Shown: positions 30,910-54,749 of the stretch, piece after piece | Layout of the letters: each line of letters starts with the position of its first letter | How positions within the stretch are numbered: the stretch's first letter is position 1 | Virus record (IMG/VR): IMGVR_UViG_3300009151_000043 | Coordinates: 31,419-95,418 of that record | Source: a virus | Length of the DNA: 64,000 nt | Strand: one strand, 5' to 3' | Position numbers and translations under genes: made by a program | Notes under the pieces: model-generated | Databases searched by the model: none | Told to the model about the DNA's origin: nothing | The model's input: only the letters and a program-made list of their open reading frames with translations

Positions 30910-30918
30910 AATATATTT

Positions 30919-39491: not shown

Positions 39492-39699
39492 ATTTGTCAG
39501 CAAGCAAACCTAGCGCTCTTGCCATATCATCAAAATTTGGATCTTCGCCTTTGGTATACCTTACCCAGCCTTGCCCATCTCCGATTATGCGATAGATAAC
39601 ATTGGGCCTATCGTCATCGGAAGTTATCAGTAATCCTGTAGCCTTGTCTGTGTTTAACAATATAGGCTCTCTAAAATCCCCTGTAACTATGATCTTCAT
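39490..39699 (-). CDS. Small hypothetical protein (69 aa)
   Basis: This 69-residue protein (MKIIVTGDFREPILLNTDKA, later YRIIGDGQGWVRYTKGED) appears to be a compact alpha/beta fold. Its start overlaps the stop of the previous gene by one base (TAATG-type), so translation is coupled. It ends in a hairpin that may be a terminator. I do not recognise a family. It lies between the sheath and the tube candidate, so it may assist their assembly. Confidence 0.75.
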   Translation of the reverse strand: MKIIVTGDFREPILLNTDKATGLLITSDDDRPNVIYRIIGDGQGWVRYTKGEDPNFDDMARALGLLADK

Positions 39700-39938
39700 T
39701 ATAATTTAATCTGTTGAAAATGGCTGTCTACTTCGTGCTGTTTAAGTAGATCACTCAATTGATCTAGCTCTTCAGGATTTTCAGGATTTTCATTCTGTGC
39801 GGCTTCTTCTGGCAGCTTTTTAAACATTTCTTGTGTGCCTGGATAGTCTGACGCTCTTTTCAGAGTATGGGCTGCCTCTTCTGGAGACAACCCATACTCT
39901 TCAGCGTATTTTAAAAACCCCGCTTCGAAAGAAGTCAT
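39699..39938 (-). CDS. Small protein with N-terminal F.AGF.KYAEEYG tag motif
   Basis: The ATG at 39938 lies 4 bases after the sheath stop and has a GGGAG Shine-Dalgarno 9 bases upstream, so it is preferred over the in-frame ATG at 39956, which overlaps the sheath gene. The 79-residue product opens with MTSFEAGFLKYAEEYGLSPE, a clear copy of the helical motif found on several head-module proteins (47346, 47826 and 49791 genes). The rest is Asn/Glu/Pro-rich and helical. Function is unknown; the motif suggests a small component bound to a common partner. Confidence 0.78.
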   Translation of the reverse strand: MTSFEAGFLKYAEEYGLSPEEAAHTLKRASDYPGTQEMFKKLPEEAAQNENPENPEELDQLSDLLKQHEVDSHFQQIKL

Positions 39939-39942
39939 GCGA

Positions 39943-40551
39943 CTAATCTCCCACAACCAATTTTAAGCTGATGTAGTTCATTGGGTACGGTACATGCAGA
40001 CGTACTTCGCAATCAATTCTATCTTTGTAGGTGGCGTTTTGCTCTAGTTTAATGATGTCGGTTTGTGGATCAAAGCTAACCAATTGGTTACCTGCTCTCG
40101 TTGTGCGGGTACCTGTGGCTCGGAAGTAAAGCTCACTCACTACAGCATTTCTCACTGCGAAAACCGCTGCAGGGTTGATGTTCCATTTTCCTATGAAAGG
40201 TGTTAAAACATTCTTTAGAGCATAGCTGATATTGTCTACGTTCGTCGTGATGGAATCTTCCGAGGTGTTTAAGTTGCTTGTGTCTGTGGTGAGTTGATGT
40301 CTGACATAAGGCGTAGCACCAATCACTTCTTGGGTGATTATCCAGATGCCTTGCTCTGCCATAGTGTTCAAGTCGTCCTGAGAAAACTCAATAACTACCT
40401 TAGATAGGTCGTCAGCCCCCAAATACTGGGTATTAGTCAACCCCTGATGAGGCACAACTCCCCCACGCAAACCTGCAAGACCTGCGGCAGCAAAATATCC
40501 CTGCTTGACCACACCGTCGTACTTGAATGTGTCTGGGAATACGCAGCGCAC
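39943..40551 (-). CDS. Tail sheath protein, C-terminal part (out of frame with the main part)
   Basis: This frame encodes the conserved sheath C-terminal domain: VFPDTFKYDGVVKQGYFAAA, then GLAGLRGGVVPHQGLTN, later RHQLTTDTSNLNTSEDSITT and NVDNISYAL. These match the 'PD....G....gy..AAalAGl.....Phqglt' signature and the last tail-ring-contact domain. The only start in the frame is a GTG at 40551, but the conserved sequence goes on upstream of it (FIGGEFNNRRV) up to about 40632. So the domain is not an independent gene. It is the continuation of the 832-residue frame after a +1 shift somewhere in 40565-40632. Confidence 0.85.
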   Translation of the reverse strand: MRCVFPDTFKYDGVVKQGYFAAAGLAGLRGGVVPHQGLTNTQYLGADDLSKVVIEFSQDDLNTMAEQGIWIITQEVIGATPYVRHQLTTDTSNLNTSEDSITTNVDNISYALKNVLTPFIGKWNINPAAVFAVRNAVVSELYFRATGTRTTRAGNQLVSFDPQTDIIKLEQNATYKDRIDCEVRLHVPYPMNYISLKLVVGD

Positions 40552-40561
40552 GCGGCGGTTA

Positions 40562-43060
40562 TTAAACTCCCCACCGATAAAGGCGATGTTCGTGGCGCTC
40601 AGACTTAGTATAGTTTCTGATAACTTGCACCTTCACCGCAGAGTTAATTGGACTAGCCAACGCTCTTGTTATAGTTAACGTTGTGTTGGACTTCACAGTG
40701 TCCACGATATATTCATCATAAATTAACTTACCTGTTGGATCTATCCTGAAGTTAAGCCTGATGCTGTCTGTAGGTCTGACACCGTCTTCAACAAACTTAG
40801 CTCCTACAACAGTCACCAGCTTGTATTGAGTATTGGACACCGATGTGTCGTCAGTGATTGTGGCGGTGTACGGTGTCTCTCCGTCTTCTTTAAGGTCATA
40901 CAGGACCTTAGTCTTTTTATCTTCGACAGAAAGCCAGGCAATTCTCCAGCGTCCTACTTCAGGAGTACTGTAGGCGTTAACATGAGATACGACAGCGTCC
41001 TGGATGGCTCTGTCGAAAGTCATAGGTACAAAGCTATACACCTTATCGCTTTTTTCCGAAATCTTAATTGCTTCAACATAGCCTGGAAGGTCGTTAGAGG
41101 CTACTGCCAAGAAATAGACAATCTGATTGTTACTATTCAGTACAGCGTCGTATACCCCTTGAGCCAAAGGATTATCAGGGTGTACGACACCTAGTTTGGA
41201 TTGTACACTAGCTAAATCTCTAACAGAGTCGATAGTCACCACATTACTGGTCAGCAGATCTCTGTGCTCAACAAATACTTTTGCAGCCAAGATTGGAAGT
41301 CTGGCGGGTTCACCCAGAACAGTCAGCTTTGGATTAAAAGTTGTCCAGTTAGCGTTGATAGATATGTACGTGTCTTCCTGGTCCCAGTTATTGTCTTCTT
41401 CACCGTTGATGTCACGGATCTGCGCTATCTCTATGCTGCGTTGATGAAGGGATAATGTAGCTACTTTGTTCGTAGATGCTGGGGTGAGCATTGCGTCCGG
41501 CAAAGCGTCAGCAAGCTGCACAATTCTGGCTGCTCCGTGTCTGGGGGCCAATACAGGCACAAAATAAACATCACCAACGATAAGCCCACCATTATTTGAG
41601 GCATCGTCAAATTCACCTGTAACTCCAAAGCGCCCGATAGGGAAAGAGCTTTCAATTCTAGGGAGCACGACAGAAGGTACATCGATATCTGAGGCTGTAA
41701 TTTTAAGTCTGGCGCAGGTAGCAGCATTGCTTCCGTTATAGAAAGCTCCGCCACGCTCTACGACAATCTTGTATGTCATGTCGATGGGTCCGATATAGTC
41801 GCCACCACCAACAATTTCAACAGGGGAAACATCAGCAAAGACAGTTAAAGAATACTGTGCGGTAGCTACAAAGTTTGTAGAGCTTTTGAAGTTGAGTCTG
41901 ACATTGTTACCGTTATTGGTGTCCAGCGTCAGGTAATACTCAGAGCCTACGTGGGTAAGTGCAACATTATTAACTGGGGTGAACGCATGGTTCAAAGACT
42001 CAACCCTAAATAACACATCAGCTAATGTGCCTCCAGTAGTGACTGTGGCTCTGTAGGTATCATTAAAGATAGTTTTGTTGTTGTAGCCTACGTAGGCAGT
42101 AGTTGCGTTAATAACCGTGACCACGTTACCTGGAGGGCTAAGTAAGGTCGACACGGCACCATTGAGTACCTCTGTGGATGCTTGCGCGTTGTTGATGTCT
42201 CCGTAAGTTCCTGCGATTCTGAAAGAATAATGGTCCCCACCTAAGTCAGGCAAGATCTGGTCAAGCAAAAGTACTTTTTCGGAAACCAAGCCGACGATTT
42301 TACGTACAATTCCTTCGCTCGTTGTGAGATAATTTCCTACAACATCGGCTGCCGAGAACACACTAGTGTCTGTGGCTGTAAACGTGTTCGATGCGTCGTT
42401 ACCTTGCCCTGTACCGAAGTAATCTCCTGAGCCTGTAAGATCTAATTGAGGAGCCACCTGAGAAGCCAGGCTCATGTCTTCAATGTGGGTCAACGTATGG
42501 ACTGCGGTAACACGCGAGCGTGCAACATTGTTCAAGTCATCTGTAACAGTAATGATGTCTCCGATAGAGACGTCACGATCACCAAAACAAGAGGAACGGT
42601 CGTGCCCATTAGCTGTCTTTAGATACACTTCAGTAAATTGTAATTGATTGCTGTGATACTGCCCTGAAGGACCAGGGACGAGCTCTACACTAGCGTCTGA
42701 TTCAATAGAGCTGCCCAGAGCTTCAAGAGGGAAGTACTGCGCTTCGACAGACTCAGCAAAAACTTTAGTATAGCTTTGATCTACATGCGCACCAGGGAGA
42801 ACATTAGGAATATCATAACGTGTACCTATTACGGTAGAGTTGTTCATGACGATCTCGCTACCTACCGGGTCATAATTATTAGCCTCAGGGAGGGCCACAC
42901 CATCAAGTGTTCCAATAATTGTGGATGCCTTTTCTCCGGCCACTGAATATCTATGTAGGTCAAAATTTGGACCTATGATGAATGCGGGTAGAGGAAACTC
43001 TCCGTAAACAGGCAGCTGAAGGAACTCTTGTTGAATTAGGACGCGTGGTGTAATGTACAT
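40562..43060 (-). CDS. Tail sheath protein, N-terminal and central part (frameshifted)
   Basis: This 832-residue frame holds the N-terminal and insertion domains of a contractile sheath. It starts MYITPRVLIQQEF and ends with the sheath-like stretch VLNSNNQIVYFLAVASND, YSFVPMTFDRAIQDAVVSHV, then VIRNYTKSE. After that it runs into a non-homologous tail (RHEHRLYRWGV) and a stop at 40562. The true C-terminus is in another frame (39943-40632). The full sheath would be about 1,040 residues, much larger than T4 gp18 (659), because of inserted domains; one of these (about 333-400) is shared with the 800-residue baseplate protein. The start has an AGGAG Shine-Dalgarno and a TATAAATA box upstream. Known role: contracts to drive the tube into the host envelope. 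Confidence 0.88.
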   Translation of the reverse strand: MYITPRVLIQQEFLQLPVYGEFPLPAFIIGPNFDLHRYSVAGEKASTIIGTLDGVALPEANNYDPVGSEIVMNNSTVIGTRYDIPNVLPGAHVDQSYTKVFAESVEAQYFPLEALGSSIESDASVELVPGPSGQYHSNQLQFTEVYLKTANGHDRSSCFGDRDVSIGDIITVTDDLNNVARSRVTAVHTLTHIEDMSLASQVAPQLDLTGSGDYFGTGQGNDASNTFTATDTSVFSAADVVGNYLTTSEGIVRKIVGLVSEKVLLLDQILPDLGGDHYSFRIAGTYGDINNAQASTEVLNGAVSTLLSPPGNVVTVINATTAYVGYNNKTIFNDTYRATVTTGGTLADVLFRVESLNHAFTPVNNVALTHVGSEYYLTLDTNNGNNVRLNFKSSTNFVATAQYSLTVFADVSPVEIVGGGDYIGPIDMTYKIVVERGGAFYNGSNAATCARLKITASDIDVPSVVLPRIESSFPIGRFGVTGEFDDASNNGGLIVGDVYFVPVLAPRHGAARIVQLADALPDAMLTPASTNKVATLSLHQRSIEIAQIRDINGEEDNNWDQEDTYISINANWTTFNPKLTVLGEPARLPILAAKVFVEHRDLLTSNVVTIDSVRDLASVQSKLGVVHPDNPLAQGVYDAVLNSNNQIVYFLAVASNDLPGYVEAIKISEKSDKVYSFVPMTFDRAIQDAVVSHVNAYSTPEVGRWRIAWLSVEDKKTKVLYDLKEDGETPYTATITDDTSVSNTQYKLVTVVGAKFVEDGVRPTDSIRLNFRIDPTGKLIYDEYIVDTVKSNTTLTITRALASPINSAVKVQVIRNYTKSERHEHRLYRWGV

Positions 43061-43081
43061 ATTTTTTTCTCCTGTATAGTT

Positions 43082-43089
43082 TATTTATA
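43082..43089 (-). promoter_or_regulatory. T4-late-like TATAAATA box upstream of tail sheath
   Basis: The minus strand has TATAAATA at 43089-43082, followed by an AGGAG ribosome binding site and the sheath ATG at 43060. The octamer equals the T4 late promoter consensus. The 86-base gap before the sheath gene is among the longer ones in the structural region, so a promoter here is reasonable. A single octamer is weak evidence. Confidence 0.4.
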
Positions 43090-43146
43090 CTTTAGTTAAG
43101 TCTATTTAATTTTTGGCTAGCGAGCAATCTTTTTTTTAACTATTGT

Positions 43147-43818
43147 TTATTTGCAAACATCTCCCTCGGTCGAGGTAGACAGCATGAATGTTTTAAGCTT
43201 TAAGTCGTCTCCTATGAGGTACCAGTTCATGTCGAAATGCGTAAGCAATGTAATGTTTATAACAAAGTGGTCTTTACTCTCCAAGTATAGCTGAGGCGGA
43301 CTCACGTTAGCAACTTGAATTCTTCGAAAATTAAAATCATTTGTTAGTGTTTCTAAATGCCTCAAGAAGAATTTGAACACGTACTCAGCTAGCTGTTCTA
43401 CAAAACCCACATTAGTGGCTACAATTGCAATAATTATAGGAAGCTCTATAATGGCTGACTTGGTCTTCGTTGACTCTGCAGGGTTCTGGGCAAGCAGCTG
43501 ATTCCAGATAGGGTATTTAAATGATGACTCTCCTCTAGAAATATAGACCCCTGGTCTTTTCTGGATGATAGCGTCTTTGTAGCTATAGGCTATCTCTAAA
43601 CCTATCCCTGACTTGAGTGGATCCTCGTCGTATCTTTGAGAAAACATATAGCCTTCTTCTTGAGGCGAGTTCACCAGCATGTAGTTTTTTAAAGCTTCGT
43701 AGCAGATGTTTTGTACTGTCCATGGAGTTAACACAGGTACACGCTCGTCTCGCTCATTCAGCTCTCTGATATAAGGATCGACTCTTGGGTTTGGACAAAT
43801 TTCGGTATCGTCAGCCAT
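43147..43818 (-). CDS. Neck/tail terminator-like protein (223 aa)
   Basis: This 223-residue protein lies between the neck candidate and the sheath, where tail terminator (gp15-like) or neck proteins are normally encoded. It is alpha/beta mixed. A stretch near residues 80-105 (YSYKDAIIQKRPGVYISRGE) is followed by a hydrophobic segment (AIIELPIIIAIVATN) and then helices (LAEYVFKFFLRHLETL). No family is recognised with certainty. It overlaps nothing and starts 15 bases after the previous stop. Confidence 0.75.
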   Translation of the reverse strand: MADDTEICPNPRVDPYIRELNERDERVPVLTPWTVQNICYEALKNYMLVNSPQEEGYMFSQRYDEDPLKSGIGLEIAYSYKDAIIQKRPGVYISRGESSFKYPIWNQLLAQNPAESTKTKSAIIELPIIIAIVATNVGFVEQLAEYVFKFFLRHLETLTNDFNFRRIQVANVSPPQLYLESKDHFVINITLLTHFDMNWYLIGDDLKLKTFMLSTSTEGDVCK

Positions 43819-43833
43819 GGTGTATGTTTTGAG

Positions 43834-44673
43834 CTACGCCTTAAAATCAAACGTCGCTGGAATGGGTATAGAATATATTGTGTCGCTGATAGGTATCACG
43901 TTCATAGACAACTTCTGTAGTATAATTATACTGGTACCTGGAAACTGCTTTGTGTTTTTAGCTGAGACACTATATCTGACACCTTCTTGGGCGTCACAAA
44001 TAATATCTCTGACTTCAGTAATAGGGTAACCAGGCATTCTTATATTTGCACTATATTTTTCTTTTACACCTATGCCGCTGGGGTCAAGCTGCTTGTCTTG
44101 GTCAGTAGATTCTACTATAAAAGTACAAGGTACCGGTGGAAAATAGCCTTCGTCCACTCCGACGCCATAGTCTTCTAGCTTCGTATCTGCTATAGGTACA
44201 CCTGATACAGGATCTATATTCTTATGTGCTACCCTGTTGCCTCCTATAGTTCCTCCATAAGACTTTCTGCGCAAGAGCCAGGCAGATGCTCCTCCGTATC
44301 TACATAACAGTATTTCTTTACGTATTACCTCAGCAGCCATAGCGTAGCGCTGTCTTTCTTGTCGGCTAGTACCAAAAAGTACAGGATAAGAATTATAGCG
44401 CTTACCATCTGCCGCAGTAAGACAGACCCTGTAAGCGTAGTTTGGTTCCCAAGACTGCTTGGCTCGCGTATCATCTACAGCGAAAAATACTTCACCAAGA
44501 TTTTTTTTAGTAGCTATCAACTCATTAAAAGCGTCGTTCTCGGCAATCTCTAATGAAAAGTTATAAGGGCGGACAGCCTTAAAAAAAGGATCCAGCTGCC
44601 ACTGCACAACATGTCCTCTTTCCCAATCAGGGATTACAGAGATGTGCTTAAAAACTCTATTGGCTACAGCCAT
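43834..44673 (-). CDS. Neck protein candidate (279 aa)
   Basis: This 279-residue protein has a good GGAGGT Shine-Dalgarno 9 bases before the ATG. It opens with VFKHISVIPDWERGHVVQWQ. A region at about 85-135 (YNSYPVLFGTSRQERQRYAM, then VIRKEILLCRYGGASAWLLR) is positively charged and helical, with strands flanking it. Many large phages have a neck protein of this size between head completion and tail terminator genes. Position supports the call; I recognise no named family. Confidence 0.72.
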   Translation of the reverse strand: MAVANRVFKHISVIPDWERGHVVQWQLDPFFKAVRPYNFSLEIAENDAFNELIATKKNLGEVFFAVDDTRAKQSWEPNYAYRVCLTAADGKRYNSYPVLFGTSRQERQRYAMAAEVIRKEILLCRYGGASAWLLRRKSYGGTIGGNRVAHKNIDPVSGVPIADTKLEDYGVGVDEGYFPPVPCTFIVESTDQDKQLDPSGIGVKEKYSANIRMPGYPITEVRDIICDAQEGVRYSVSAKNTKQFPGTSIIILQKLSMNVIPISDTIYSIPIPATFDFKA

Positions 44674-44675
44674 GC

Positions 44676-44885
44676 TTATTTACCTCCGCGCAATATTTCA
44701 GCAACTACCTTGAAGTCTTTTGCAACTTCAGCAAAACCACCATTTAAAATACTGTTTATAGACTTTTTAACCTTATGCTTCAATATTTTCGCACGTATTC
44801 TAGCCTTGAAAGATGGGCTTTGCAGTGCGGTATCTGCGGCCTGGTAAGCTTGCTTTCCTGCATTAAATAGTTTCTCCGGCATCAT
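44676..44885 (-). CDS. Small basic protein of neck region (69 aa)
   Basis: This 69-residue strongly basic, helical protein (FKARIRAKILKHKVKKSINS) has an excellent AAGGAGGT Shine-Dalgarno 5 bases upstream of its ATG (which overlaps the previous stop region) and ends 2 bases before the next gene. Highly basic small head proteins often bind packaged DNA or the connector. Nothing specific is recognised. Confidence 0.75.
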   Translation of the reverse strand: MMPEKLFNAGKQAYQAADTALQSPSFKARIRAKILKHKVKKSINSILNGGFAEVAKDFKVVAEILRGGK

Positions 44886-45332
44886 TTAGAACCTCCTTCT
44901 ATAGATATATTCTGAGTGTTTGACTCCATATATTTGGGCGATGTTATGGTTCATCTTTATCTGTTGTCCTAGCTCTTTAAAGTCTTGCTGTAAGGCCTGC
45001 GATAGCGACATGAATATCTGCGCCTTATCTTTATCGTTAATCTGTACGCCGTCTGCCGCATAAGAGAGTGAGTTGGCTGCCTCATTTATCGATCCTGACC
45101 GTAAAAGGTATGCAGCTGTACCCAGCAGCAAAAGCGATCTATAAGGAAACGACTCTATAGAATGCATGATCCCTGTAGGAGGGTTCATTAGGTTATAATA
45201 GTCTACCGTATTAATCATCGCCTGCTCTATCATCTCAGGGGTAAATCTAACTCCCAACAACAATGGATTAAGCTCCTGCCTGTCTTGCAGGAAGAGCCGT
45301 ACTTCTTCTGCTGTAAGAATAGGGGTAGCCAT
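44886..45332 (-). CDS. Head completion/adaptor protein (148 aa)
   Basis: This 148-residue all-helical protein begins TAEEVRLFLQDRQELNPLLL and has a segment YRSLLLLGTAAYLLRSGSIN, followed by NEAANSLSYAADGVQINDKD. This resembles head-tail adaptors (gp6 or gp15-like in siphoviruses), which form a ring under the portal. The position right after the capsid gene and before the neck gene supports it. It starts 2 bases after the previous stop. Confidence 0.68.
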   Translation of the reverse strand: MATPILTAEEVRLFLQDRQELNPLLLGVRFTPEMIEQAMINTVDYYNLMNPPTGIMHSIESFPYRSLLLLGTAAYLLRSGSINEAANSLSYAADGVQINDKDKAQIFMSLSQALQQDFKELGQQIKMNHNIAQIYGVKHSEYIYRRRF

Positions 45333-45334
45333 AA

Positions 45335-45625
45335 TTAACCTTTTGGTGGTGTTGGAGACAGATCTAGCGCTTTAGCTTTTAATGGTGCACCTGTAGGCGC
45401 TCCAGAGCTAGGGTTCGTTATTCCTGGTGACATGGTATTGTTCGACATGGGTGTCGCGTTTATCCTGGCCATGTTGTTGCCTGAGCTTACTTCCGCTGTC
45501 TGTAAATGGTCTGCTGTTTCTGCTGCGGTCGTTCCGCCTCCTCCTCCCCCAGGTGGAGGTGTAATCTGCATCGATGCTTTTTCCATATACCTAGTAAAGT
45601 CCACCAAGATATTTTCTTCTTTCAT
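45335..45625 (-). CDS. Small Gly/Pro-rich head protein (96 aa)
   Basis: This 96-residue protein has a short helical start (ILVDFTRYMEKASMQI), then a PPPGGGGGG linker and a Ser/Asn/Pro/Thr-rich remainder. It lies after the strong terminator downstream of the capsid gene and may begin a new transcription unit. It looks mostly disordered, fitting a head accessory or assembly peptide. No family is recognised. Confidence 0.7.
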   Translation of the reverse strand: MKEENILVDFTRYMEKASMQITPPPGGGGGGTTAAETADHLQTAEVSSGNNMARINATPMSNNTMSPGITNPSSGAPTGAPLKAKALDLSPTPPKG

Positions 45626-45677
45626 AGCTTAATTATACATTTAACCCGCCTAGTTATCAAGAGGGATATCGACAACA

Positions 45678-45703
45678 AAAAGGGGGCCCGCAGGCCCCCT
45701 TTT
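45678..45703 (-). terminator. Strong intrinsic terminator after the capsid gene
   Basis: A perfect 11-bp stem (AAAAGGGGGCC with GGCCCCCTTTT) and a 4-base loop (CGCA on the plus strand) is followed on the minus strand by TTTTTGTTGT. It lies 25 bases after the end of the capsid gene and separates it from the adaptor genes. Confidence 0.92.
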
Positions 45704-45727
45704 ATAGTGTCTTTTACTTTTCTTGCA

Positions 45728-46687
45728 TTAAGCGTTGAAGTCGATCTTCACAACACCCTTCACGTTGCCGATGGCAAGCGAGAGGTTCATGTACTGGAAG
45801 TACTCGAGGAAGTAGGCTTCGTTCTTCATGAACACTGTGAGAGGCTGCAATCTGTAGTACTTGCCGAAGAACTCTTCGGAGGAGAACAGATAGATCACAC
45901 CGTCAGGGACGAGATCGCGCTTGATGGTGTAGATCGGTTTCACGCCCAAGAGAGTCTTGGAAGGAAGTCCATTGACCCACATTTCCTGCGCCATGTCGCC
46001 GCCGACTTCAGAACGACTCATTTTAACGAAGTCATCTGCAGTAACGTTGTTCATCAGCATAACACCCTTTGTTTCTCCGCCGTCTGGCTGAGAAGGACCG
46101 AAAGGTACCCTGAGACGCTTGATGACCTTGAAGGCTTCAGCGACGTTCTCACGAGTGATACCACCACTGATAGTAACATTCTGAGGAAGTCCGAGACCGT
46201 TAAGTGCATTAGCTGTGTTAACTGTGCCGATAACACTGTTAACGCGGGTCATGAAACGTGTATCGATTTCTGTGGCGATGTCCTTTGTGGACAACTCAAG
46301 CATGATCGCACGGATATCATAATCGTAGCTTCTGAGCTGGTCGATGTCCTTGTTGAACTTCGGGCTCGTGATACGTGTGAAGTAGGAAGGATACCGTGTA
46401 CCAGAGAACTGGAACATGTCAGGCACTACACCCAAAGGAATAGTGACGGCAGGAGCAGTATCAGGCTCACGATCGTTCCACTTAACAAGAAGCTCAGGAT
46501 TCTCAGACTTGTCGAGATCATCATTGCTGATGTCGATAGGTGTGATAATCTTTTCTGTGAAGCTTTCTTCACGAAGCTTGTTACGTGTGAAGGACTGTGC
46601 ACTCACAGCTGCTTTCTTTTCTTCACCAGCTTTAACCATTTCAACGAACGTATCGTTGAACACTCTTTGATTAGCGATTTTTTCCAT
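45728..46687 (-). CDS. Major capsid protein (candidate)
   Basis: This 319-residue protein has an N-terminal helical region (residues 1-50, FNDTFVEMVKAGEEKKAAVS) that may be removed at maturation, followed by an alpha/beta body with a long-helix segment (YDIRAIMLELSTKDIATEID) as in HK97-fold capsids. Other support: it is flanked by the putative decoration gene and a very strong terminator, and its codons prefer C- or G-ending synonyms, unlike its AT-richer neighbours, as in highly expressed genes. The size is compact for a large phage. No other protein in the window is a better capsid candidate. Its start lacks a clear Shine-Dalgarno. Confidence 0.78.
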   Translation of the reverse strand: MEKIANQRVFNDTFVEMVKAGEEKKAAVSAQSFTRNKLREESFTEKIITPIDISNDDLDKSENPELLVKWNDREPDTAPAVTIPLGVVPDMFQFSGTRYPSYFTRITSPKFNKDIDQLRSYDYDIRAIMLELSTKDIATEIDTRFMTRVNSVIGTVNTANALNGLGLPQNVTISGGITRENVAEAFKVIKRLRVPFGPSQPDGGETKGVMLMNNVTADDFVKMSRSEVGGDMAQEMWVNGLPSKTLLGVKPIYTIKRDLVPDGVIYLFSSEEFFGKYYRLQPLTVFMKNEAYFLEYFQYMNLSLAIGNVKGVVKIDFNA

Positions 46688-46704
46688 ATATTATGTATCT
46701 AGGT

Positions 46705-47187
46705 TTAGCTGTACAATTTAACTCCGAGCACGGTGATAACACCCTGCACTTTATAACCATTGATCACCTGGGTGACGCCTGGGATTGAGCGGCTGCCTTC
46801 AACCTGGCCGATGACTCTGTCAGATCCTCCAGCTGCCTTAACATTACCTGTACCGGCTTCTGCTGTAAGCAAGTCTCCGAGGCTGTAGCTGGAGGCGTCT
46901 CCAACGAACTTATCGGTTTCGATGACGGATGCGCCATCCAAAGCATACACGCCGATGACTCCAGATTCAATCACGTCACCAGCTGTCTGGCTGTTGATTG
47001 CAAACCCGAGAAGTTCATCTTTAGCTGTAGCTACGCTAGAGCCCTTTTTGACTTCTGTGACTGCACCGTTTGGTTCCAAGCGAACAATCATCCCTGCTTC
47101 GATATTTGCGCCGCTCTCGTTGTTTGGCACCCCAACATAGTTGATTTGGTGCAAACTAAGAGCAGGTCCTTTTTTGAAATTAATCAT
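46705..47187 (-). CDS. Head decoration/stabilisation protein (160 aa)
   Basis: This 160-residue beta-rich protein has an AGGAG Shine-Dalgarno upstream. It reads MINFKKGPALSLHQINYVGV, later EAGMIVRLEPNGAVTEVKKG, and near the end VIGQVEGSRSIPGV. This resembles small beta-barrel decoration proteins whose genes sit beside the capsid gene (lambda D-type or larger). The next gene, 17 bases on, is the capsid candidate. It is the first gene after a 158-base leader that contains a palindrome, consistent with separate, strong expression. Confidence 0.68.
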   Translation of the reverse strand: MINFKKGPALSLHQINYVGVPNNESGANIEAGMIVRLEPNGAVTEVKKGSSVATAKDELLGFAINSQTAGDVIESGVIGVYALDGASVIETDKFVGDASSYSLGDLLTAEAGTGNVKAAGGSDRVIGQVEGSRSIPGVTQVINGYKVQGVITVLGVKLYS

Positions 47188-47303: not shown

Positions 47304-47330
47304 ATAGTTATTTTCTTAGAAAATAACTAT
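47304..47330 (-). terminator. AT-rich palindrome between head genes and the decoration/capsid unit
   Basis: An inverted repeat of 13 bases on each side of one base (ATAGTTATTTTCT and its complement) lies in the 158-base gap 47188-47345. It follows the end of the 158-residue gene by about 15 bases. No clear T run follows, so it may be a terminator, an RNA processing site or a protein site. The remaining gap (47188-47303) is AT-rich and holds the AGGAG site for the decoration gene. Confidence 0.4.
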
Positions 47331-47345
47331 TTAGTCAATATTATT

Positions 47346-47822
47346 TTAATCGAATAGACTTGGAGTCTCCACGTCCTTCAAATGCTTTTTATGTATCTCA
47401 TCCATGAACGCCTTTTGCTGTTTACCTCCCCCATGAATCATTTTGGCTAAAGCTGCCACCGGAGCGAGTCCGGGCACCATTTCCGCAGCCGAGAGACCTA
47501 CCCCCATGTCACCTGCTGTACCACCAGTATACCTTCTTACTGCCCTAGTTGCTGCCTCGGTCAATGGGCCACCAACAAAAGGGTTCGCTATGTAATGCCC
47601 GAGATGATGTTTGCGATTATAGACAAGACCTTTCAGCTTTTCATCTGCAGCATATCTTGAGGCTGTGTTATCTGCGTCCCATGGACCTATATGCTCTTCC
47701 TCTTTATCCTTATGTTTATCTTTTGCAAATTTTCCTAAAAGCTCTAGAGCCTCCTGTTGGGATACTCCGTATTCACTAGCTCTCTTAACGAATCCAGTGA
47801 TGTATGCTTGTTGTGTGTTCAT
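47346..47822 (-). CDS. Head-module protein with N-terminal GF.KRASEYG tag motif (158 aa)
   Basis: The 158-residue product opens with AYITGFVKRASEYGVSQQEA, the archetype of the recurring motif. It has a full AGGAGG Shine-Dalgarno (CAGGAGGAG) that overlaps the stop region of the upstream gene. The middle is charged (KDKHKDKEEEHIG), and a Gly/Ala/Met segment (GGTAGDMGVGLSAAEMVPGL) suggests a membrane-interacting or flexible region. The C-terminus is HLKDVETPSLFD. It may be an internal head protein that uses the motif as an address tag. No family is recognised. Confidence 0.78.
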   Translation of the reverse strand: MNTQQAYITGFVKRASEYGVSQQEALELLGKFAKDKHKDKEEEHIGPWDADNTASRYAADEKLKGLVYNRKHHLGHYIANPFVGGPLTEAATRAVRRYTGGTAGDMGVGLSAAEMVPGLAPVAALAKMIHGGGKQQKAFMDEIHKKHLKDVETPSLFD

Positions 47823-47825
47823 AGA

Positions 47826-48266
47826 TTACTCCTCCTGTTGGGTTAAGCGTTCTTTTAATAATTTTCTTTCAGCCATTTGCTTGGTCAACATATCTACGGG
47901 GGTACCTACACCAGCGCCGACAGCTCCCCCTATAGCTCCGCCTTTCAAGGCTGAAGCTAGCACACTAGCGTTGCCTGAATACGGATTAACTTTACGTGTT
48001 ATCCCGTTCAATAATGAGGCGAGCGCCGCTGCACCTAAGCCCCCTGTAATGGCTCCTGCTCCTGCTCCTGTGTATTTACCTATGTTGCGTGCCAGGTGGG
48101 CGGGAGCTCCTTCTTCGCTCACAGCATCCCCGAGTTCGTCAGTACCAGAATAACCAAAATGAGATGATGCAGACTTAAGTAGCGCAACGGCCTCTTGTTC
48201 GGTGAGGCTGTACATACCGGCTCTTTTTATAAATCCGGCAATAAAACTATCGTCAATATTAGGCAT
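47826..48266 (-). CDS. Head-module protein with N-terminal GF.KRAGMYS tag and Gly-zipper region (146 aa)
   Basis: This 146-residue protein starts with FIAGFIKRAGMYSLTEQEAV, followed by LLKSASS. It then has a long Gly/Ala-rich hydrophobic region (GAGAGAITGGLGAAALASLL, later GGAIGGAVGAGVG) of the glycine-zipper type, which often inserts into membranes. It ends with a charged helix (KLLKERLTQQEE). Together with the 158-residue gene downstream it forms a pair with the same tag. An internal virion protein that reaches the host membrane after injection is possible. Confidence 0.78.
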   Translation of the reverse strand: MPNIDDSFIAGFIKRAGMYSLTEQEAVALLKSASSHFGYSGTDELGDAVSEEGAPAHLARNIGKYTGAGAGAITGGLGAAALASLLNGITRKVNPYSGNASVLASALKGGAIGGAVGAGVGTPVDMLTKQMAERKLLKERLTQQEE

Positions 48267-48269
48267 AAA

Positions 48270-48662
48270 TTAATCGTCTAGTAGGTTATAACCATTGTCG
48301 TAACCGAAAGCTCTCCTCAGTACAGGATCATCTGACTGCCCAGAGGCCTTTACAGTTGCAGACTTGCCCATATAGGCTACGTCAGCTGCGTTACAAACTC
48401 GCTCAACCACCTTAGCCAGATATTTTGGATCTTCTTTGGCTCTTTTAACGAAAAGAGCTCTTTCATCCTCATCATTAATAAAATCTGAGCTATACATCGC
48501 GTCTGCGGCTTTTTTAATTGCTTGGTCTAGCTCAGTGTTTTTCCTAACCGTTTCTGCTCCCTCTTTAACCTGCAGCGTATGTACTTGCTGTTTAAGCTCT
48601 GCAATCTCTGACAAGGCCACCTTAACAAAGGCTTCAACTTTATGTAGTGCTTGTTTGGTCAT
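48270..48662 (-). CDS. Helical head-module protein (130 aa)
   Basis: This 130-residue protein starts ALHKVEAFVKVALSEIAELK, then a coiled coil (QQVHTLQVKEGAETVRKN), and a charged alpha-helical body with NDEDERALFVKRAKEDPKYL. It overlaps the end of the small 51-residue upstream gene and carries an AGGTG ribosome site. I do not recognise it. A scaffold accessory or head-core protein is plausible from composition and neighbours. Confidence 0.75.
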   Translation of the reverse strand: MTKQALHKVEAFVKVALSEIAELKQQVHTLQVKEGAETVRKNTELDQAIKKAADAMYSSDFINDEDERALFVKRAKEDPKYLAKVVERVCNAADVAYMGKSATVKASGQSDDPVLRRAFGYDNGYNLLDD

Positions 48663-48795
48663 TTTTCACCTTTTCTAGAGTTATAAGACTGTCAATATAC
48701 TCAATGACTTTAGACTTATCTTCTTGGCTTAGATGTTGAAGAGCCTGCAGAGCCTGCTCTTCAACTAAGCTTTTCTTCGCAGAAGTGGCAGCCAT
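48640..48795 (-). CDS. Small helical protein (51 aa)
   Basis: An ATG at 48795, 17 bases after the stop of the scaffold candidate, opens a frame of 51 residues ending TAA at 48640. It reads MAATSAKKSLVEEQALQALQ and then HLSQEDKSKVIEYIDSLI. The last 23 bases overlap the next gene's start in another frame, and it fills a gap of 150 bases that otherwise holds no gene. The helical sequence has hydrophobic heptads. No family is recognised. Confidence 0.6.
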   Translation of the reverse strand: MAATSAKKSLVEEQALQALQHLSQEDKSKVIEYIDSLITLEKVKNDQTSTT

Positions 48796-48812
48796 CGTTA
48801 TTGTGGCCTGAA

Positions 48813-49727
48813 CTACTTGCTTTCGCCAGTAACCACTTCAGCCTTAAGTCTGTTTAAAACAGTGTCTGCGACAGATGCGGCTAATTTTTCTTGTGTTGCG
48901 AATGCATGTTGCTCGGCTTCTGCCTGCTTAAAGAAAGCCTCATACTCAGCTAATTTAGCGGAAAGCTGCTGGTTTTCAGCAAGCGCTTCCTCCAAGGCGG
49001 CCTGCTTGAGCAATTCGTCAAAATAAGTCGCACCTGCTGTCTCAGCTTCAACAGCTTGCTGCGCTGCTTGTTTTTCTTGCTGCTGGTTATTTTCTAGTTC
49101 TTCAGCAGCTTGAGCAATGAGTACATCAAAATCTCTACGACCTGCTTCTTTCAGCATCTCCAGTTCATCTACAGCAGGAGCTTCGCTAGCGGCCTTCAAC
49201 AGGGCGGCACAGAACTGGCGACCCAACTCGTAAGAGGCTACCTTGGCGGCAAGCTCTTCAACTTCAGCTGCCTTCTTGGCGCTAGCTAAAGGTTTAGAGT
49301 CATCTGTCGATGCTTTCTGGCTATAGTTCTGCTTGTTGTTCTCAGGCTTCACGGCATTCTTGTCGGTCTTTTCCTGGCCATCGCCAACGCTTTCAGATTT
49401 AACAGCGCCTGGCTTGCCGGTGGCGGAGTCCTGAGCTTCAGCTTGTTTACGTAGAATATCTAGAATTTCTGCTCCAAGATTTTCTGCCGTCTTTGTTTTG
49501 GCGAGAGGTTCGGAAGAGTCTTCAGAAGGTTTCTGGGAGTAGCTCTGAGGAACATTTTCAGGACCTACAGAATTCTTATTATAGCCTTCGTGCTCGTCCC
49601 CGACACTAACAGACTTGACGTCTCCTCCGGGTGCTCCGGAGATGTTCTTCTGTGCTTCTTCTGCCTGTTTTTTCACCATTGAATGAAGTTGATTGAGGAC
49701 CTCTGCGTGTTTAGTTAATTTAGCCAT
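48813..49727 (-). CDS. Scaffold/head-core-like protein with internal repeat (304 aa)
   Basis: This 304-residue Gln/Glu/Ala-rich helical protein is preceded by an AGGAG site. It contains a duplicated linker unit: residues about 25-80 (GAPGGDVKSVSVGDEHEG, then NYSQKPSED-like QSYSQKPSEDSSEPLA) and about 100-155 (GKPGAVKSESVGDGQEKT, then QNYSQKASTDDSKPLA). The C-terminal half is a long coiled coil (EEALAENQQLSAKLAEYEAF). Composition and the position between protease and capsid fit a scaffold. The duplicated S/G/P/Q segments may include cleavage sites for the prohead protease. Confidence 0.72.
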   Translation of the reverse strand: MAKLTKHAEVLNQLHSMVKKQAEEAQKNISGAPGGDVKSVSVGDEHEGYNKNSVGPENVPQSYSQKPSEDSSEPLAKTKTAENLGAEILDILRKQAEAQDSATGKPGAVKSESVGDGQEKTDKNAVKPENNKQNYSQKASTDDSKPLASAKKAAEVEELAAKVASYELGRQFCAALLKAASEAPAVDELEMLKEAGRRDFDVLIAQAAEELENNQQQEKQAAQQAVEAETAGATYFDELLKQAALEEALAENQQLSAKLAEYEAFFKQAEAEQHAFATQEKLAASVADTVLNRLKAEVVTGESK

Positions 49728-49790
49728 GTTATTTACTCCTAATTTTTTAAAGTTTACTTTGTGTTTTCTGTTTTGTAAATACTTTTATTG

Positions 49791-50528
49791 TTATCTAGAA
49801 TTAAAAGCTTTTGACAAAAAGGTTTGGGTTTGAGCTGGGGAAAGTCCGTAAGCTTGCGCCTGTTTATACACACCTTCAAAATAAGCGTCTTCAGCGGCCT
49901 TAGGCTTAAGGTTGGTGCGGGTGTTCTTGTTGTAGTTGGCTTTCTTGACGGAGGATTGCTTGTTGATAGCTGAAATGGTTTGCGTCAAAGCATTATCATA
50001 CAGGTCAACAGCCTGCTTTACACTCGCTCCTTGCTGTAAGGCGTTGCTGATAAAACCTTCAATGTAACCTGCAGATTTAAGCATGCGGAATGCAGCCATT
50101 TTTTCCGGAGGTAAAGAGGCAGCTGCTTCTGGGGATGCTTCTGGTGAACTACCTAAGTGTCCTTGTATGGCTTGCGCCAAAGCTGCGACGTCTTCTCCTC
50201 CACCTGCCGCCTCTCCCGGATGCTGCATGTTTGAGGAAAGCTCTGTAGCCAATTCTTCCAGTTCTTGTGGGGAAAGCTGGGAAAGAAGGTGCTCGATATC
50301 TCCGCCTCCTTCTCCACCACCCATACCCATACCCATACCCATACCTATTGGTGCGGATTCGTTATGGCCTTCGGCTCCTTCTCCACCACCCATAGCGTGC
50401 TCTAGCATTTCTGCCTGAGGGGCTTCACTTTGTTCATGCGCTGCTTCTGCGGGGTTACCTGGTTCTTCAGCAGCTCTTTTAGACTGTAAGAAATTTGCGA
50501 TTAGGGATTTTGCGTAAGGATGTGACAT
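49791..50528 (-). CDS. Head-core protein with two copies of the tag motif (245 aa)
   Basis: This 245-residue protein has an acidic, Gly/Met/Ala-rich N-terminal half (including a Met-Gly run encoded by a hexamer repeat) and a helical C-terminal half. The last 30 residues (AYFEGVYKQAQAYGLSPAQT) are a C-terminal copy of the tag. Residues about 165-192 (SAGYIEGFISNALQQGASVK) are a diverged internal copy. Its neighbours are the protease and the scaffold-like gene, so it is likely part of the prohead core. The acidic region may be intrinsically disordered. Confidence 0.72.
   Translation of the reverse strand: MSHPYAKSLIANFLQSKRAAEEPGNPAEAAHEQSEAPQAEMLEHAMGGGEGAEGHNESAPIGMGMGMGMGGGEGGGDIEHLLSQLSPQELEELATELSSNMQHPGEAAGGGEDVAALAQAIQGHLGSSPEASPEAAASLPPEKMAAFRMLKSAGYIEGFISNALQQGASVKQAVDLYDNALTQTISAINKQSSVKKANYNKNTRTNLKPKAAEDAYFEGVYKQAQAYGLSPAQTQTFLSKAFNSR
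50320..50343. repeat. Hexamer microsatellite (CCCATA x4)
   Basis: Four perfect copies of the hexamer lie in tandem within the 245-residue gene and encode alternating Met and Gly on the minus strand. Copy number changes would keep the reading frame. Confidence 0.9.
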
Positions 50529-50587
50529 ATAGTTACTGGTTTATTTTTTAAATGTTAACTGAATTTCTGTAGTGTTCCAATCTTTTT

Positions 50588-52036
50588 TTATCTATTTTGT
50601 ACTAGTGCGTTAAATATCGTATCTTCGTCTAGTTTATTCTGGCTGGCCATATAGCGAAGAGCTGCCAATTTATACGCAGCATATTCTTTTGCTAAAGTCT
50701 TTACGGCTGATTCTTTAGACATCTCTTTGTCTTCTTCTTTATGCTTTAATTTGGCTATAGGCATTTTCTTAACGATCGTGATGCGCATTATTCTACCATG
50801 TGCGGGCTGGTCAAAAAGCGAATGATTTTCAAAAAGATTCTTCACCATATTCATGATACCTTTGGGCATTATATCAGAATGTGACGGCTCATACTTCTCC
50901 TCATTTAATACATCATCGCCATCTTCTTCAAGCTCAGAAAACATAGAGGGAAGATGTTTTTTTACTTTGCTAAACATCTCGCCTGCCCCTCCCTCCATGC
51001 CTTTAGCTCCGAAAAGATATTTAATAAAGTCTTTAGGAGAAAACACAATACCTTTATCTGCTAGCGCTTTAAGCAGTTTGGCTGGCTCAAAACCTCTAAG
51101 CTCTTCCATGGCACTAGCAGAGATATCGTCTCCGTGGTTTAACTTACCTTTCTGCTCTGCGAGATACTTATCTTTAGAGTCTTTGGGTCCTCCTTCGATA
51201 ACCCCATCAATATGCTTTTCCAGGGCTGCCAGCTTTTTAACCAAAGACCTTTTTTCTGCGGCGTACTTGGATATCTGCAAAAAACTGTCATCGTCAGGAG
51301 CCACAAAACCAGGATAAAGCTCTCTGTAATCTGAAGCTGTTTTAACGTAGCTGCTATCTGAAGCCAGTTTAAGACTCATGCCTATGCGGTCGGCGGGTCT
51401 TCCAACAATAGATAACTCAAACCACTTAGGGTCGATATTGTCCATACTGCACATCTCTCCTCGCTTGTTAATCTCTCCTAGCTTGGAAGGGATGTGTTTG
51501 CAGCGATGGTTATCCGTTTTGGCTTCATGACCGCACCAAGTGCATTTGTCGTAGGCTACTTTAGCTGCCATACTAACATTGATCTGCTTTCCTTCTGCCA
51601 GCTTTTGAAGCTCTTCGGCGCACTTATCGTTATCCATTCCGATAACAAGCTCGATACGCTTCATCTTATCGTTATAGGAAGCTGCTTTGATATTGCCGTA
51701 TTTAGGGTCTTCAGGCTTGTTCTTGTGGTGCCTATTTAAAGCTCTACCATCATAAGAACCATCTTTCCGTTTGCTTCCAGACTTAACGAAAGTTTTGTAA
51801 TGCTGCTTACAGGCAGCTTCTTTAAAAATATCACCATTTCTGTTAGCTCCTGTACCCTCATAAGCCCCCAGAGCAATAACTAGTACGTCTGTCTGTCCGG
51901 CGGTCTTCTCTGCTCTAAGCTCTGAGTTATCTGCACCTGCTTTGGTGAGGGTATTACTGTTATGAATCAACTGTACAGGCTCTATGTCCCAGTTCCAGTC
52001 GTTCGTATCGCTAAATTTAATTAAACCTTTGTACAT
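50588..52036 (-). CDS. Prohead protease with zinc-binding insertion (482 aa)
   Basis: The N-terminal 220 residues match caudovirus prohead serine proteases. They include GAYEGTGANRNGDIFKEAAC, NRHHKNKPEDPKYGNI (catalytic His103 or 104), INVSMAAKVAYD (catalytic Ser155) and WFELSIVGRPADR. Between the Ser and the last motif is a CTWCGH...HRCKH...C cluster (Cys165, 168, 179, 196 with nearby His), a likely zinc site absent from T4 gp21. A C-terminal extension of about 260 helical residues follows, rich in charges. Known role: cleaves scaffold and capsid N-termini during head maturation. It is located before the scaffold and capsid genes, the conserved order. Confidence 0.87.
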   Translation of the reverse strand: MYKGLIKFSDTNDWNWDIEPVQLIHNSNTLTKAGADNSELRAEKTAGQTDVLVIALGAYEGTGANRNGDIFKEAACKQHYKTFVKSGSKRKDGSYDGRALNRHHKNKPEDPKYGNIKAASYNDKMKRIELVIGMDNDKCAEELQKLAEGKQINVSMAAKVAYDKCTWCGHEAKTDNHRCKHIPSKLGEINKRGEMCSMDNIDPKWFELSIVGRPADRIGMSLKLASDSSYVKTASDYRELYPGFVAPDDDSFLQISKYAAEKRSLVKKLAALEKHIDGVIEGGPKDSKDKYLAEQKGKLNHGDDISASAMEELRGFEPAKLLKALADKGIVFSPKDFIKYLFGAKGMEGGAGEMFSKVKKHLPSMFSELEEDGDDVLNEEKYEPSHSDIMPKGIMNMVKNLFENHSLFDQPAHGRIMRITIVKKMPIAKLKHKEEDKEMSKESAVKTLAKEYAAYKLAALRYMASQNKLDEDTIFNALVQNR

Positions 52037-52038
52037 AA

Positions 52039-54303
52039 TTACTGTATTTTATCGGCACGGTCAAACTCTCCACGAGACTTGAGTAGTGTCTTTTTCCAAT
52101 CTTTAATTTTGCCTGAAGAATTACTTTGATTCTGTATGGCTTTCAGCAAATGATAAAGCCCTGCTCCTCCTGCAGCTATGCCGGCTCCAGCCAATAAGGG
52201 AGTTCTATGCCTTACTAAGTTTTTAAGAATACTTGACTCTTGGTGCTTCTTATCTTGCAGCCTCCTAAGCGATGTGTCTACGAACGCTGCGCCTTTTGGA
52301 TCTTTTGCTAGGCTAAAATCTCCTCCTCTGCGATATTCATGCATAACGTCTTTGACCAACTCGCTATCAAAGTGCGGGTTGGCTCCAGTCAAATTATGTT
52401 TTTCAAATAAATCAGCTACAGCTTGGTCCTTACTTGGGGCGAAATGTTCGCTGATAAAATCTCCAATTCTCCCTTTCCCTCGTAAAGAATGTAGCCCTTC
52501 GCCTATATATTCCTTTAGTCCTCCTTTGCTGTGCGCCCTCTGTAACGACTCATGCACATCAGCATAAGAGGCTAAACTACTTGCGGCTGGAGAATTTTTA
52601 GCAGTATTAATGACACCCTGCATAGCGTCCTTATTTCCGAGCGCTTTAGCTTGCCTGTACTGAGCTAAAAAAGATTTGGGGTGACCTGCCTCTGTTTTAT
52701 TTAATCTATCCAGGATAGCTAAACGCTTCTCTGGGTCGGTTTGCAAATCTCCAAAAACGCGAGAAACATCGGGGCGCATTTTACCCTTTTGAGGCTCTAG
52801 CAAAACAGAAGAATTGGATGCATCCGCTTTAGGATTTCCTTCGCGAGCCATGCTTGCCGGCTCTGTTTTATTCATATTGCTCCACTGACTATACAAATTT
52901 TTAAGTACGCCCCCACCTGCCACAGCTGCACCTATAGGTAAAGAATGTTTGGCTAGGTCTGTAGCTACTGCCTGTACTGGATGCTCGTCATAGAAAGTTT
53001 CTCCGGTGTTCTGCTTGAGTCCTGTGGCATATTGCATCCCTACGAGACCTTTACGTACCTGTTCTTTTAATGCCGCTATTCTAGCTACATCTGCTTTATT
53101 GTGCGCTTCTGGAGAAATAGAAGGATGTATAGCTGCATATAAATCAGAATCTTTACCAGCTTCCGGATTTGCCAGGGCTTGACTAAATTGCGTATTTGCT
53201 GTTTTCATTTGAGTATTTTGTGGTTGTGCTGCGGCTGCCGCAGGTATAGTATTATTCTGTGTAGGAGCTGGACTGGGCTTCGTTCCTGTAGGTTTGCCTT
53301 GAGCGGATAATTGCTGGGTTTGCCATTCTGGCTTAACCATTGGCGGGCTTGCGCCGAACCAGCCACCTACACGGTCGTTAATAGACATAAGCTTGGGATC
53401 TAGAGGTACCAATCCGTTATGTTTGGGTAAGTTGCCTCCTGCCTGAGGGGCTTGTGTTGCTGTTGATTGTCGGGGGGGCTCCATGAATTTACTGGGCTGC
53501 GTGTTCAGATTCTTCCAGACATCTACTCCCTGATTTGCTATATCTATGCCGGTACTGACAAGCGGACCTACAGGAGGAAGAAAATTAGCTCCCGCTGAAA
53601 CTAGACTCATCGCTCCTTGAGCCTTGTTTAATAACCCAGGTTCTTTAAATTTATTCATGCCGTAATTAATATCCATGGCTGAAGCTACCCCAGGAAGTAT
53701 GTGAGAACCTACTGCTTTTCCGACCATTCTTGCAGCGGTGTTACCTAGTGCTCCTCTTACTCCTTTAGTTATTGCTGGCTGGAGAGCTGGACCGGCTTTA
53801 GCTGCTAAATAACCTGCTCCGCCTGCTCCGCTGTACAGGGCAGCATTACCTAGATGTGCGCCTCTATTCTCTGGGTCTCGCCAGGCGCTAACTAATTCAG
53901 GGGCTGCAGCTAGAGCTGATCCGCCTACGACCCCTGCTTTCGCTACACTACCTAAGGCTCCAGCCATGTTCGGTAGAGTGTTTCTGGGGTTTGTAGCTTT
54001 CCAGGAATTTTTTAATTGTTCGAAGTTTGTCCCTGTCACGCCTGGTTTACGCCCTCCTAAATAGCTAGCGGCTCCTAATCCTGCATTCAATCCTGCCATA
54101 CCTAGCTCAGGATGCCATTCACCAGTTTGAGGGCCTTCACCCAGAGCAGCTGCGTCTTCTGGACTTACTTTATTTGTAATATCGTTAGCTGCGCCAGCGA
54201 TGCCTCTACCCAAATTTAATTTATGCTGCAAACTAGGAAGGTGCATGGGTGCCCCTATTGCGGTTTTTTCTAAGGGACGGAACAATTTACTATAAAGATA
54301 CAT
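52039..54303 (-). CDS. Large Gly/Ala/Pro-rich virion protein (754 aa)
   Basis: This 754-residue protein has a Gly/Ala-rich N-terminal half with several mildly hydrophobic stretches (GAGGAGYLAAKAGPALQPAI, MSLVSAGANFLPPVGPLVST), a Pro/Gln/Thr-rich linker (about 285-370), then helices and one clear membrane-like segment near residues 700-720 (PLLAGAGIAAGGAGLYHLLK). It may be an internal virion protein that enters the host envelope. No enzymatic motif is visible. It lies between the 141-residue tagged gene and the protease, with 2-base spacing to the latter. Confidence 0.78.
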   Translation of the reverse strand: MYLYSKLFRPLEKTAIGAPMHLPSLQHKLNLGRGIAGAANDITNKVSPEDAAALGEGPQTGEWHPELGMAGLNAGLGAASYLGGRKPGVTGTNFEQLKNSWKATNPRNTLPNMAGALGSVAKAGVVGGSALAAAPELVSAWRDPENRGAHLGNAALYSGAGGAGYLAAKAGPALQPAITKGVRGALGNTAARMVGKAVGSHILPGVASAMDINYGMNKFKEPGLLNKAQGAMSLVSAGANFLPPVGPLVSTGIDIANQGVDVWKNLNTQPSKFMEPPRQSTATQAPQAGGNLPKHNGLVPLDPKLMSINDRVGGWFGASPPMVKPEWQTQQLSAQGKPTGTKPSPAPTQNNTIPAAAAAQPQNTQMKTANTQFSQALANPEAGKDSDLYAAIHPSISPEAHNKADVARIAALKEQVRKGLVGMQYATGLKQNTGETFYDEHPVQAVATDLAKHSLPIGAAVAGGGVLKNLYSQWSNMNKTEPASMAREGNPKADASNSSVLLEPQKGKMRPDVSRVFGDLQTDPEKRLAILDRLNKTEAGHPKSFLAQYRQAKALGNKDAMQGVINTAKNSPAASSLASYADVHESLQRAHSKGGLKEYIGEGLHSLRGKGRIGDFISEHFAPSKDQAVADLFEKHNLTGANPHFDSELVKDVMHEYRRGGDFSLAKDPKGAAFVDTSLRRLQDKKHQESSILKNLVRHRTPLLAGAGIAAGGAGLYHLLKAIQNQSNSSGKIKDWKKTLLKSRGEFDRADKIQ

Positions 54304-54323
54304 AGCGATATGTTATATGCCTA

Positions 54324-54749
54324 CTAGTCAATGCGTTGGCCGTGGGGAGAAACCGACATAAGCGCAGACTGTTGTGGGTCAGGTCCTTCAAGACCACGAG
54401 CTATAGGGTCATAAATAGGTCTGGCTAGTGCGTCTCCAAGCATAAATGTGCCAGTATTAGCTGCCATACCCTTTAGACTGAAGGGGTCTTTCATGGCGTC
54501 GACTAAGCCTTTTGTGTGTTTGACTATAGGTGCAGGAATGGCTTTCCCTTTAAATGGCCCCCGCATTATACGCCTACCTGCAGCCAATCTTTCTAAACCT
54601 TTATTAACTCCCCAGTTACTAAGTACGGGTGCGGCAATTCTAATGAGTGTAGGCAGAAAGGCCTCTTTGGTCATACCTAACTCATCAGCCCGTTTAAAAA
54701 TACCGTCAACGAACGCCTGCTCTAGGTTTGGGTCTTCACTATATAGCAT
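54324..54749 (-). CDS. Protein with N-terminal GIFKRADELG tag-like motif (141 aa)
   Basis: The 141-residue product starts LEQAFVDGIFKRADELGMTK, a diverged copy of the recurring helical tag. The rest has a hydrophobic segment (AFLPTLIRIAAPVLSNW) and Gly/Pro-rich stretches (RRIMRGPFKGKAIPAPI). It starts 3 bases after the upstream stop and is followed by the 754-residue protein, which has related composition. Likely a small internal or scaffold-linked protein. Confidence 0.75.
   Translation of the reverse strand: MLYSEDPNLEQAFVDGIFKRADELGMTKEAFLPTLIRIAAPVLSNWGVNKGLERLAAGRRIMRGPFKGKAIPAPIVKHTKGLVDAMKDPFSLKGMAANTGTFMLGDALARPIYDPIARGLEGPDPQQSALMSVSPHGQRID

Follow-up and report, generated by a model that had tools for sequence, protein, structure and literature searches.

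Why should proteins that are otherwise unrelated carry the same short helical stretch? The question is raised by a 64,000-nucleotide piece of viral DNA, called the window here, which comprises bases 31419-95418 of the 95,418-base IMG/VR record IMGVR_UViG_3300009151_000043, itself a fragment. In the window, which encodes a tail sheath at 39943 and belongs to a contractile-tailed phage, a 27-residue module with the consensus AYIEGFVKRAxEYGFSEEEAIELLKQA, referred to below as the tag, recurs at the ends of, or inside, several proteins. The tag is probably a removable capsid-targeting signal, built on a hairpin related to scaffold repeats and cut by the prohead protease at the motif K-x-A. Positions are those of the window unless a contig or another locus is named.

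Recurrence of the tag in the window and its relatives

A preliminary description of this DNA had listed copies at the N-termini of the proteins at 39699, 47346, and 47826 and at the C-terminus of the protein at 49791, and all four are exactly where it placed them (Table 1). These four strong copies were used to seed a hidden Markov model (HMM) of the tag; in the controls, for which the whole protein set was shuffled 10 times and reversed once, no score exceeded 6.4 bits. Two unseeded copies exceed this level: the diverged copy at the start of 54324-54749, as described earlier (9.1 bits, E=0.006), and MTPYEHSFLGGYLKRASEHGIDSDSAIRLLKQAA in a gene just outside the window, at contig 30161-30901 (14.3 bits, E=1.5e-4). 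The weaker internal copy reported in 49791-50528 falls below the controls when scored alone and is confirmed by conservation, as its Y, G, F, A, G, A, V, and Y are kept in 12 of 12 homologues. The copy FEAGYLKEA inside 55148-56641 did not hold up; its score is at chance level, and the likelier reading is that it represents one of the protein's 19 K-x-A sites. Structure prediction models the tag as a two-helix hairpin with a mean predicted local distance difference test score (pLDDT) of 84.

Relatives were gathered via the capsid protein (13 records) and, for further ones, via the exact DNA pattern of the tag; the cultured members of the family in the comparison are Salmonella phage Arash and Vibrio phage D69. 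The tag HMM matched 21 of the 23 records searched, namely the window's own and 20 of 20 other IMG/VR records, and gave no match in Arash or D69. As many as 13 copies occur per record (G003 13, G009 12, G004 9), and all loci together hold 99 distinct copies in 92 proteins. The tag is N-terminal in 71 cases, mostly starting at residues 3-7, and internal or C-terminal in 28. A strict DNA pattern of the tag was found in 16 stretches among 2.9 million IMG/VR viral contigs, all from records that the HMM also matched. In 84,980 prokaryote genomes (257 Gb) it gave no in-frame match; the single match there was out of frame and is attributed to chance. The consensus had no match among 50,697 phage records, and a search of a literature library returned no publication on Arash and none describing this tag.

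The tag is real. Short helical motifs do recur randomly, and a low-complexity helix, a recent gene duplication, or DNA recombination seeds could each produce similar stretches, but these explanations are refuted by the tests run and retain almost no probability: the unseeded matches lie far above the shuffles, and the strict pattern is confined to one lineage. Moreover, tags within one genome share 41% identity at third codon positions against 75% at second positions, and since their synonymous sites have diverged, selection acts on the protein and recent duplication is ruled out as the source. Tag similarity is slightly higher within than between genomes (0.54 vs 0.50), an excess too small to support an argument for co-evolution with a partner. 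The tagged proteins are otherwise unrelated, as had been proposed, because 67 cargo bodies of all relatives, stripped of the tag, fall into 40 BLAST clusters.

The K-x-A motif and the prohead protease

The head proteins of Arash and D69 looked full of K-x-A, and an unbiased scan was therefore run in which all residue pairs one to five positions apart were scored against composition, with no motif chosen beforehand. Among the family's head proteins, of which 313 non-redundant ones were scanned, K.A ranked first of 2000 gapped pairs (1332 occurrences vs 768 expected, and at most 840 in 200 shuffles), whereas in 336 tail proteins it ranked 1152nd (318 vs 324 expected). The pairs following K.A in the head set included L.K, M.K, and L...A, each a part of [LM]-x-K-x-A. 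K.A also took first place when the head proteins of the window phage, Arash, and D69 were scanned, was not enriched in the tails of these three or in the early genes of the window contig, and was first in nearly every close-relative head module and high in more distant ones. The flanks in Arash and D69 show L or M at P5, E or V at P4, and S at P1', giving [LM]-[EV]-K-x-A-S; in the window phage they show L or F at P5 and A, E, or S at P1'. In the T4 control the scan returned I.E at rank 1 and L.E at rank 6, the known gp21 site, and neither was so placed in T4 tail proteins. A mere helix pattern was considered as the source of K-x-A and ruled out, as the variants R.A and E.A were not enriched (nor was K.S) and a long tape-measure-like protein at 30919-35514 has no excess (16 vs 17.9 expected).

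K-x-A stands just upstream of 27 of the 28 internal or C-terminal tags, against a background of 28%, and the single exception is probably a misassigned start. At the other end, K-x-A closes 58 of the 71 N-terminal tags, against a background of 3.6% per cargo segment, and the cargo bodies themselves show no excess (30 vs 37). The site thus separates tag from cargo at either end. In the capsid protein, K and A of residues 24-26 are invariant and the middle residue is variable in 81 of 81 relatives having the region, although these proteins are as little as about 25% identical.

A candidate protease for such sites is encoded in the head module. The phrog_18299 profile matches 34 of its 36 relatives, while Pfam S78 matches only one (E=0.0075), and H104 and S155, the predicted catalytic His and Ser, are invariant in the 36 sequences. 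Its fold agrees with that of tailed-phage prohead proteases (S78/S77-like), the matches in BFVD being named prohead protease or COG3740 (E 2.5e-7 to 5e-7); a PDB fold search gave nothing significant, with herpesvirus proteases at E about 0.6-0.8, and a PDB sequence search gave no match. The model is largely below pLDDT 50 from residue 224 to 254, and the K-x-A at residues 223-225 is a candidate self-cleavage site.

In the proposed sequence of events, the hairpin would bind the prohead core, most likely the tag-array and scaffold proteins (49791-50528 and 48813-49727), and the tagged proteins bound there would be enclosed during shell formation. The prohead protease (50588-52036) would then cut after the A of [LM]-x-K-x-A, with S, A, or E following, its substrates being the capsid protein, the scaffold, and the tag borders. 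The tag and scaffold fragments would exit or be degraded, whereas the freed cargo would remain with the DNA and probably be injected into the next host cell. Further cargo would be acquired when another gene is placed on either side of a tag. An uncut hairpin that anchors its protein permanently to capsid, portal, or scaffold, with K-x-A as a recurrent binding motif, is unlikely. Such an anchor would suit the confident hairpin model and the related modules found in core proteins, but K-x-A also occurs apart from the tag, where the capsid protein has its conserved start and where the protease domain ends; its middle residue varies, S or A is preferred after it, and it lies between tag and cargo in both orientations. 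Such a pattern is that of a cleavage site.

Several observations weigh against a removable, head-directed tag. K8-R-A10 lies inside helix 1 and may be structural instead of cut, as a permanent anchor would have it; 13 of the 71 N-terminal tags lack a second K-x-A; and the 49791 family supplies over half of the 28 internal copies, with unrelated internally tagged proteins agreeing on the upstream K-x-A. In addition, the pair scan missed A-x-E in the SPN3US control (A.E rank 156), and the tagged gene at 39699 belongs to the tail module.

Table 1. Features of the window discussed in the text
Feature	Position	Strand	Evidence or remark
N-terminal tag, residues 3-29 of 79, SFEAGFLKYAEEYGLSPEEAAHTLKRA	39852..39932	(-)	tag HMM match; kept in 11 relatives
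Major capsid protein	45728..46687	(-)	27% identical to its homologue in Salmonella phage Arash (E=9e-26)
K24-x-A26 of capsid protein	46610..46618	(-)	predicted propeptide cleavage site
N-terminal tag, residues 6-32, AYITGFVKRASEYGVSQQEALELLGKF	47727..47807	(-)	tag HMM
N-terminal tag, residues 7-33, SFIAGFIKRAGMYSLTEQEAVALLKSA	48168..48248	(-)	tag HMM
K-x-A-rich candidate scaffold protein	48813..49727	(-)	15 K-x-A, 5.3 expected
Tag-array protein, candidate core/scaffold protein anchoring tagged cargo	49791..50528	(-)	every homologue has 2-3 tag copies, separated by an acidic QLSPEELEQL region
C-terminal tag, AYFEGVYKQAQAYGLSPAQTQTFLSKA, K-A-A directly before	49806..49886	(-)	tag HMM
Diverged internal tag, YIEGFISNALQQGASVKQAVDLYDNAL, K-S-A directly before	49989..50069	(-)	4.3 bits alone; conserved in homologues
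Head maturation protease	50588..52036	(-)	phrog_18299 E=9e-9; fold match to prohead proteases in BFVD
Near-invariant K-x-A, protease residues 223-225, folded-domain end	51362..51370	(-)	alignment; model
Diverged N-terminal tag, AFVDGIFKRADELGMTKEAFLPTLIRI	54636..54716	(-)	gene 54324; tag HMM
Claimed copy FEAGYLKEA, first third of tag only	55811..55840	(-)	2.7 bits, chance level
RNA polymerase beta' fragment	61047-62897		separate C-terminal piece, start of head module

Origin, cargo and surroundings of the tag

The relatives that lack the tag point to its source. Their scaffold-position protein has repeats such as LEKAAAVNHLIDNGIDFAEAVELVKEA, in which the second half agrees with that of the tag, and the family of the 54324 protein begins with an AFVEGFVKEAS-like segment matching the first half and retains F-x-x-G-F-x-K-E-A in tag-less relatives too. 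A tag-inspired regular expression for the scaffold repeats is biased by design, and the evidence used is the unbiased HMM scan: among 1071 proteins of tag-less relatives, 31 hits reached 5 bits or more, nearly all in head genes, whereas shuffles yielded 0-1. Since both halves match head-core modules of these relatives, the tag is most likely a head-core element put onto cargo.

The main users of the tag, beyond those listed for the window earlier, are cargo islands of the relatives, away from the head genes. Most copies sit on consecutive small proteins, and one locus (L036) holds eight tagged genes within 6 kb. Known domains occur in few cargos (DUF6321, DUF3008, EF-hand/dockerin, acylphosphatase, glycine zipper, and an ATP-grasp match just under the curated cut-off), and in the DUF6321 and DUF3008 cargo it is essentially only the part outside the tag to which homologues from other phages align. 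Four enzyme-like tagged proteins were seen (L036:7322-8575, L038:7596-9704, L045:8193-9386, L046:12559-13812), among them an ATP-grasp protein with a C-terminal tag, an acylphosphatase-like protein with an internal tag, and two with HExxH noticed by eye. An EF-hand/dockerin-like segment, DVDKDGKIEASDL, recurs as a neighbour of tags, in the tag-array protein as well as in cargo (L037:6688-7818, L041:10173-10556, L043:8729-9253, L055:8105-9229). Several tagged proteins have a second module in common, KIMGSYDPxSKxDxxxAxxIRxLY..., at or close to their C-terminal end (L036:12449-13309, L039:2424-3569, L045:11833-12807, L047:8591-9373).

These islands bear on two further explanations. The tag might send its proteins elsewhere in the infected cell, to a replication compartment or membrane, the tags on head proteins being secondary. 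Some tagged genes are indeed far from the head module, and the cargo includes enzyme-like domains and glycine-zipper helices; however, the tags are joined to head-specific K-x-A sites and their halves match head scaffold modules in relatives, which makes this destination decidedly improbable. Cleavable N-terminal regions are frequent inhibitors of enzymes, and the tag could similarly be a pro-region that holds cargo enzymes inactive until cut, with packaging left to other features. This is more improbable still, as one tag serves 40 unrelated bodies, many without a recognisable enzyme domain, and is found at either end.

The earlier suggestion of a common address tag for entry into the prohead followed by protease processing is the best explanation, supported by some 40 unrelated cargo families, by a prohead protease in the head module, by a head-only motif enriched at tag-cargo junctions, and by the resemblance of the tag halves to core modules. 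A wider reading has about an even chance of being right: the virion would be a modular delivery device in which any protein placed on the scaffold-derived hairpin is loaded, freed by a K-x-A-specific protease, and injected, while the lineage swaps hypervariable cargo. If true, this would allow cargo swapping in tagged islands, including the enzyme-like ATP-grasp, acylphosphatase-like, and HExxH proteins.

Other features of the locus were recorded beside these. The small tagged protein at 39699-39938, kept in relatives, sits among tail genes. Adjoining the unseeded tagged gene at the window's edge, a 354-residue protein (window 1-559, contig 30913-31977) has 14 K-x-A where 2.2 are expected, the highest density seen in the contig, and is a candidate head core protein. 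The beta' fragment has a counterpart at the same place in Arash and D69 and is possibly a virion or late RNA polymerase. The tail module contains a protein of 4062 residues (6780-18968) and a protein at 27276-27908 judged by eye to be sigma-factor-like (region 3-like LGRSPTVEEIAHHSG).

Comparison with known systems

T4 offers a well-characterised case of capsid targeting and P1 a second one, and the head-carried proteins of large uncultured phages are mostly unknown. In T4, passages of PMC9026906 assign targeting to residues 4 and 7 of the signal and processing to residues 8 and 10, and describe how gp21 cuts the signal of the internal proteins IPII and IPIII and frees the cargo from the core. 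T4 ipII and ipIII start with MKTYQEFIAE/A. Like the T4 signal, the tag is a short segment common to unrelated proteins (here 92 tagged proteins, with 67 cargo bodies in 40 clusters). Both have aromatic residues, after which T4 has a protease site of the form P3-x-P1 and the tag the candidate site K-x-A, a motif derived independently from head proteins. Unlike the T4 signal, which has 10 residues and I/L-x-E, the tag has 27 residues, a predicted hairpin, and a predicted K-x-A, and it recurs as many as 13 times in a genome, serving 40 cargo families from either end or from an internal position. Compared by eye, the tag (AYIEGFVKRA...) and T4 MKTYQEFIAE have no alignable homology.

In phiKZ and SPN3US, S/A-x-E and A-x-E are the sites at which the prohead protease processes numerous head and ejection proteins, according to parts of PMC9026906 and PMC10052503, in which no common modular tag is described. 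A preference for S at P1', as in those parts for SPN3US, is also seen for K-x-A in Arash and D69, whereas the phiKZ and SPN3US enzymes cut after E and the propeptides dealt with there are mostly long. In phage P1, an N-terminal signal of DarB sends the protein or a reporter to the capsid, and the prohead protease cuts DarA (PMC9024508, PMC12810830). In contrast to the tag, DarB and DarA are single proteins with their own signals rather than users of one small reused module.

The tag also differs from the encapsulin cargo-loading peptide, which is C-terminal and serves an encapsulin shell, as 71 of the 99 tags are N-terminal and it is a tailed-phage capsid protein that forms the shell here. Herpesvirus assemblin is a capsid maturation serine protease that cuts an Ala-Ser bond during scaffold removal. 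Its sites are not known to require K at P3, unlike K-x-A, and the Ala-Ser likeness is only suggestive. Prohead proteases are described as homologues of the herpesvirus protease in a section of PMC9026906.

The predicted prohead protease specificity for K-x-A would be new and is directly testable on the cultured phages Arash and D69. With a recognisable tag and a predicted cut site, the question of which proteins are injected becomes a sequence search, and about 40 candidate families can be listed now. If true, the tag would provide a short portable loading signal and an example of an address tag arising from scaffold repeats. Its nearest known counterpart is the capsid targeting sequence of T4, which it would resemble in function without belonging to it by sequence.
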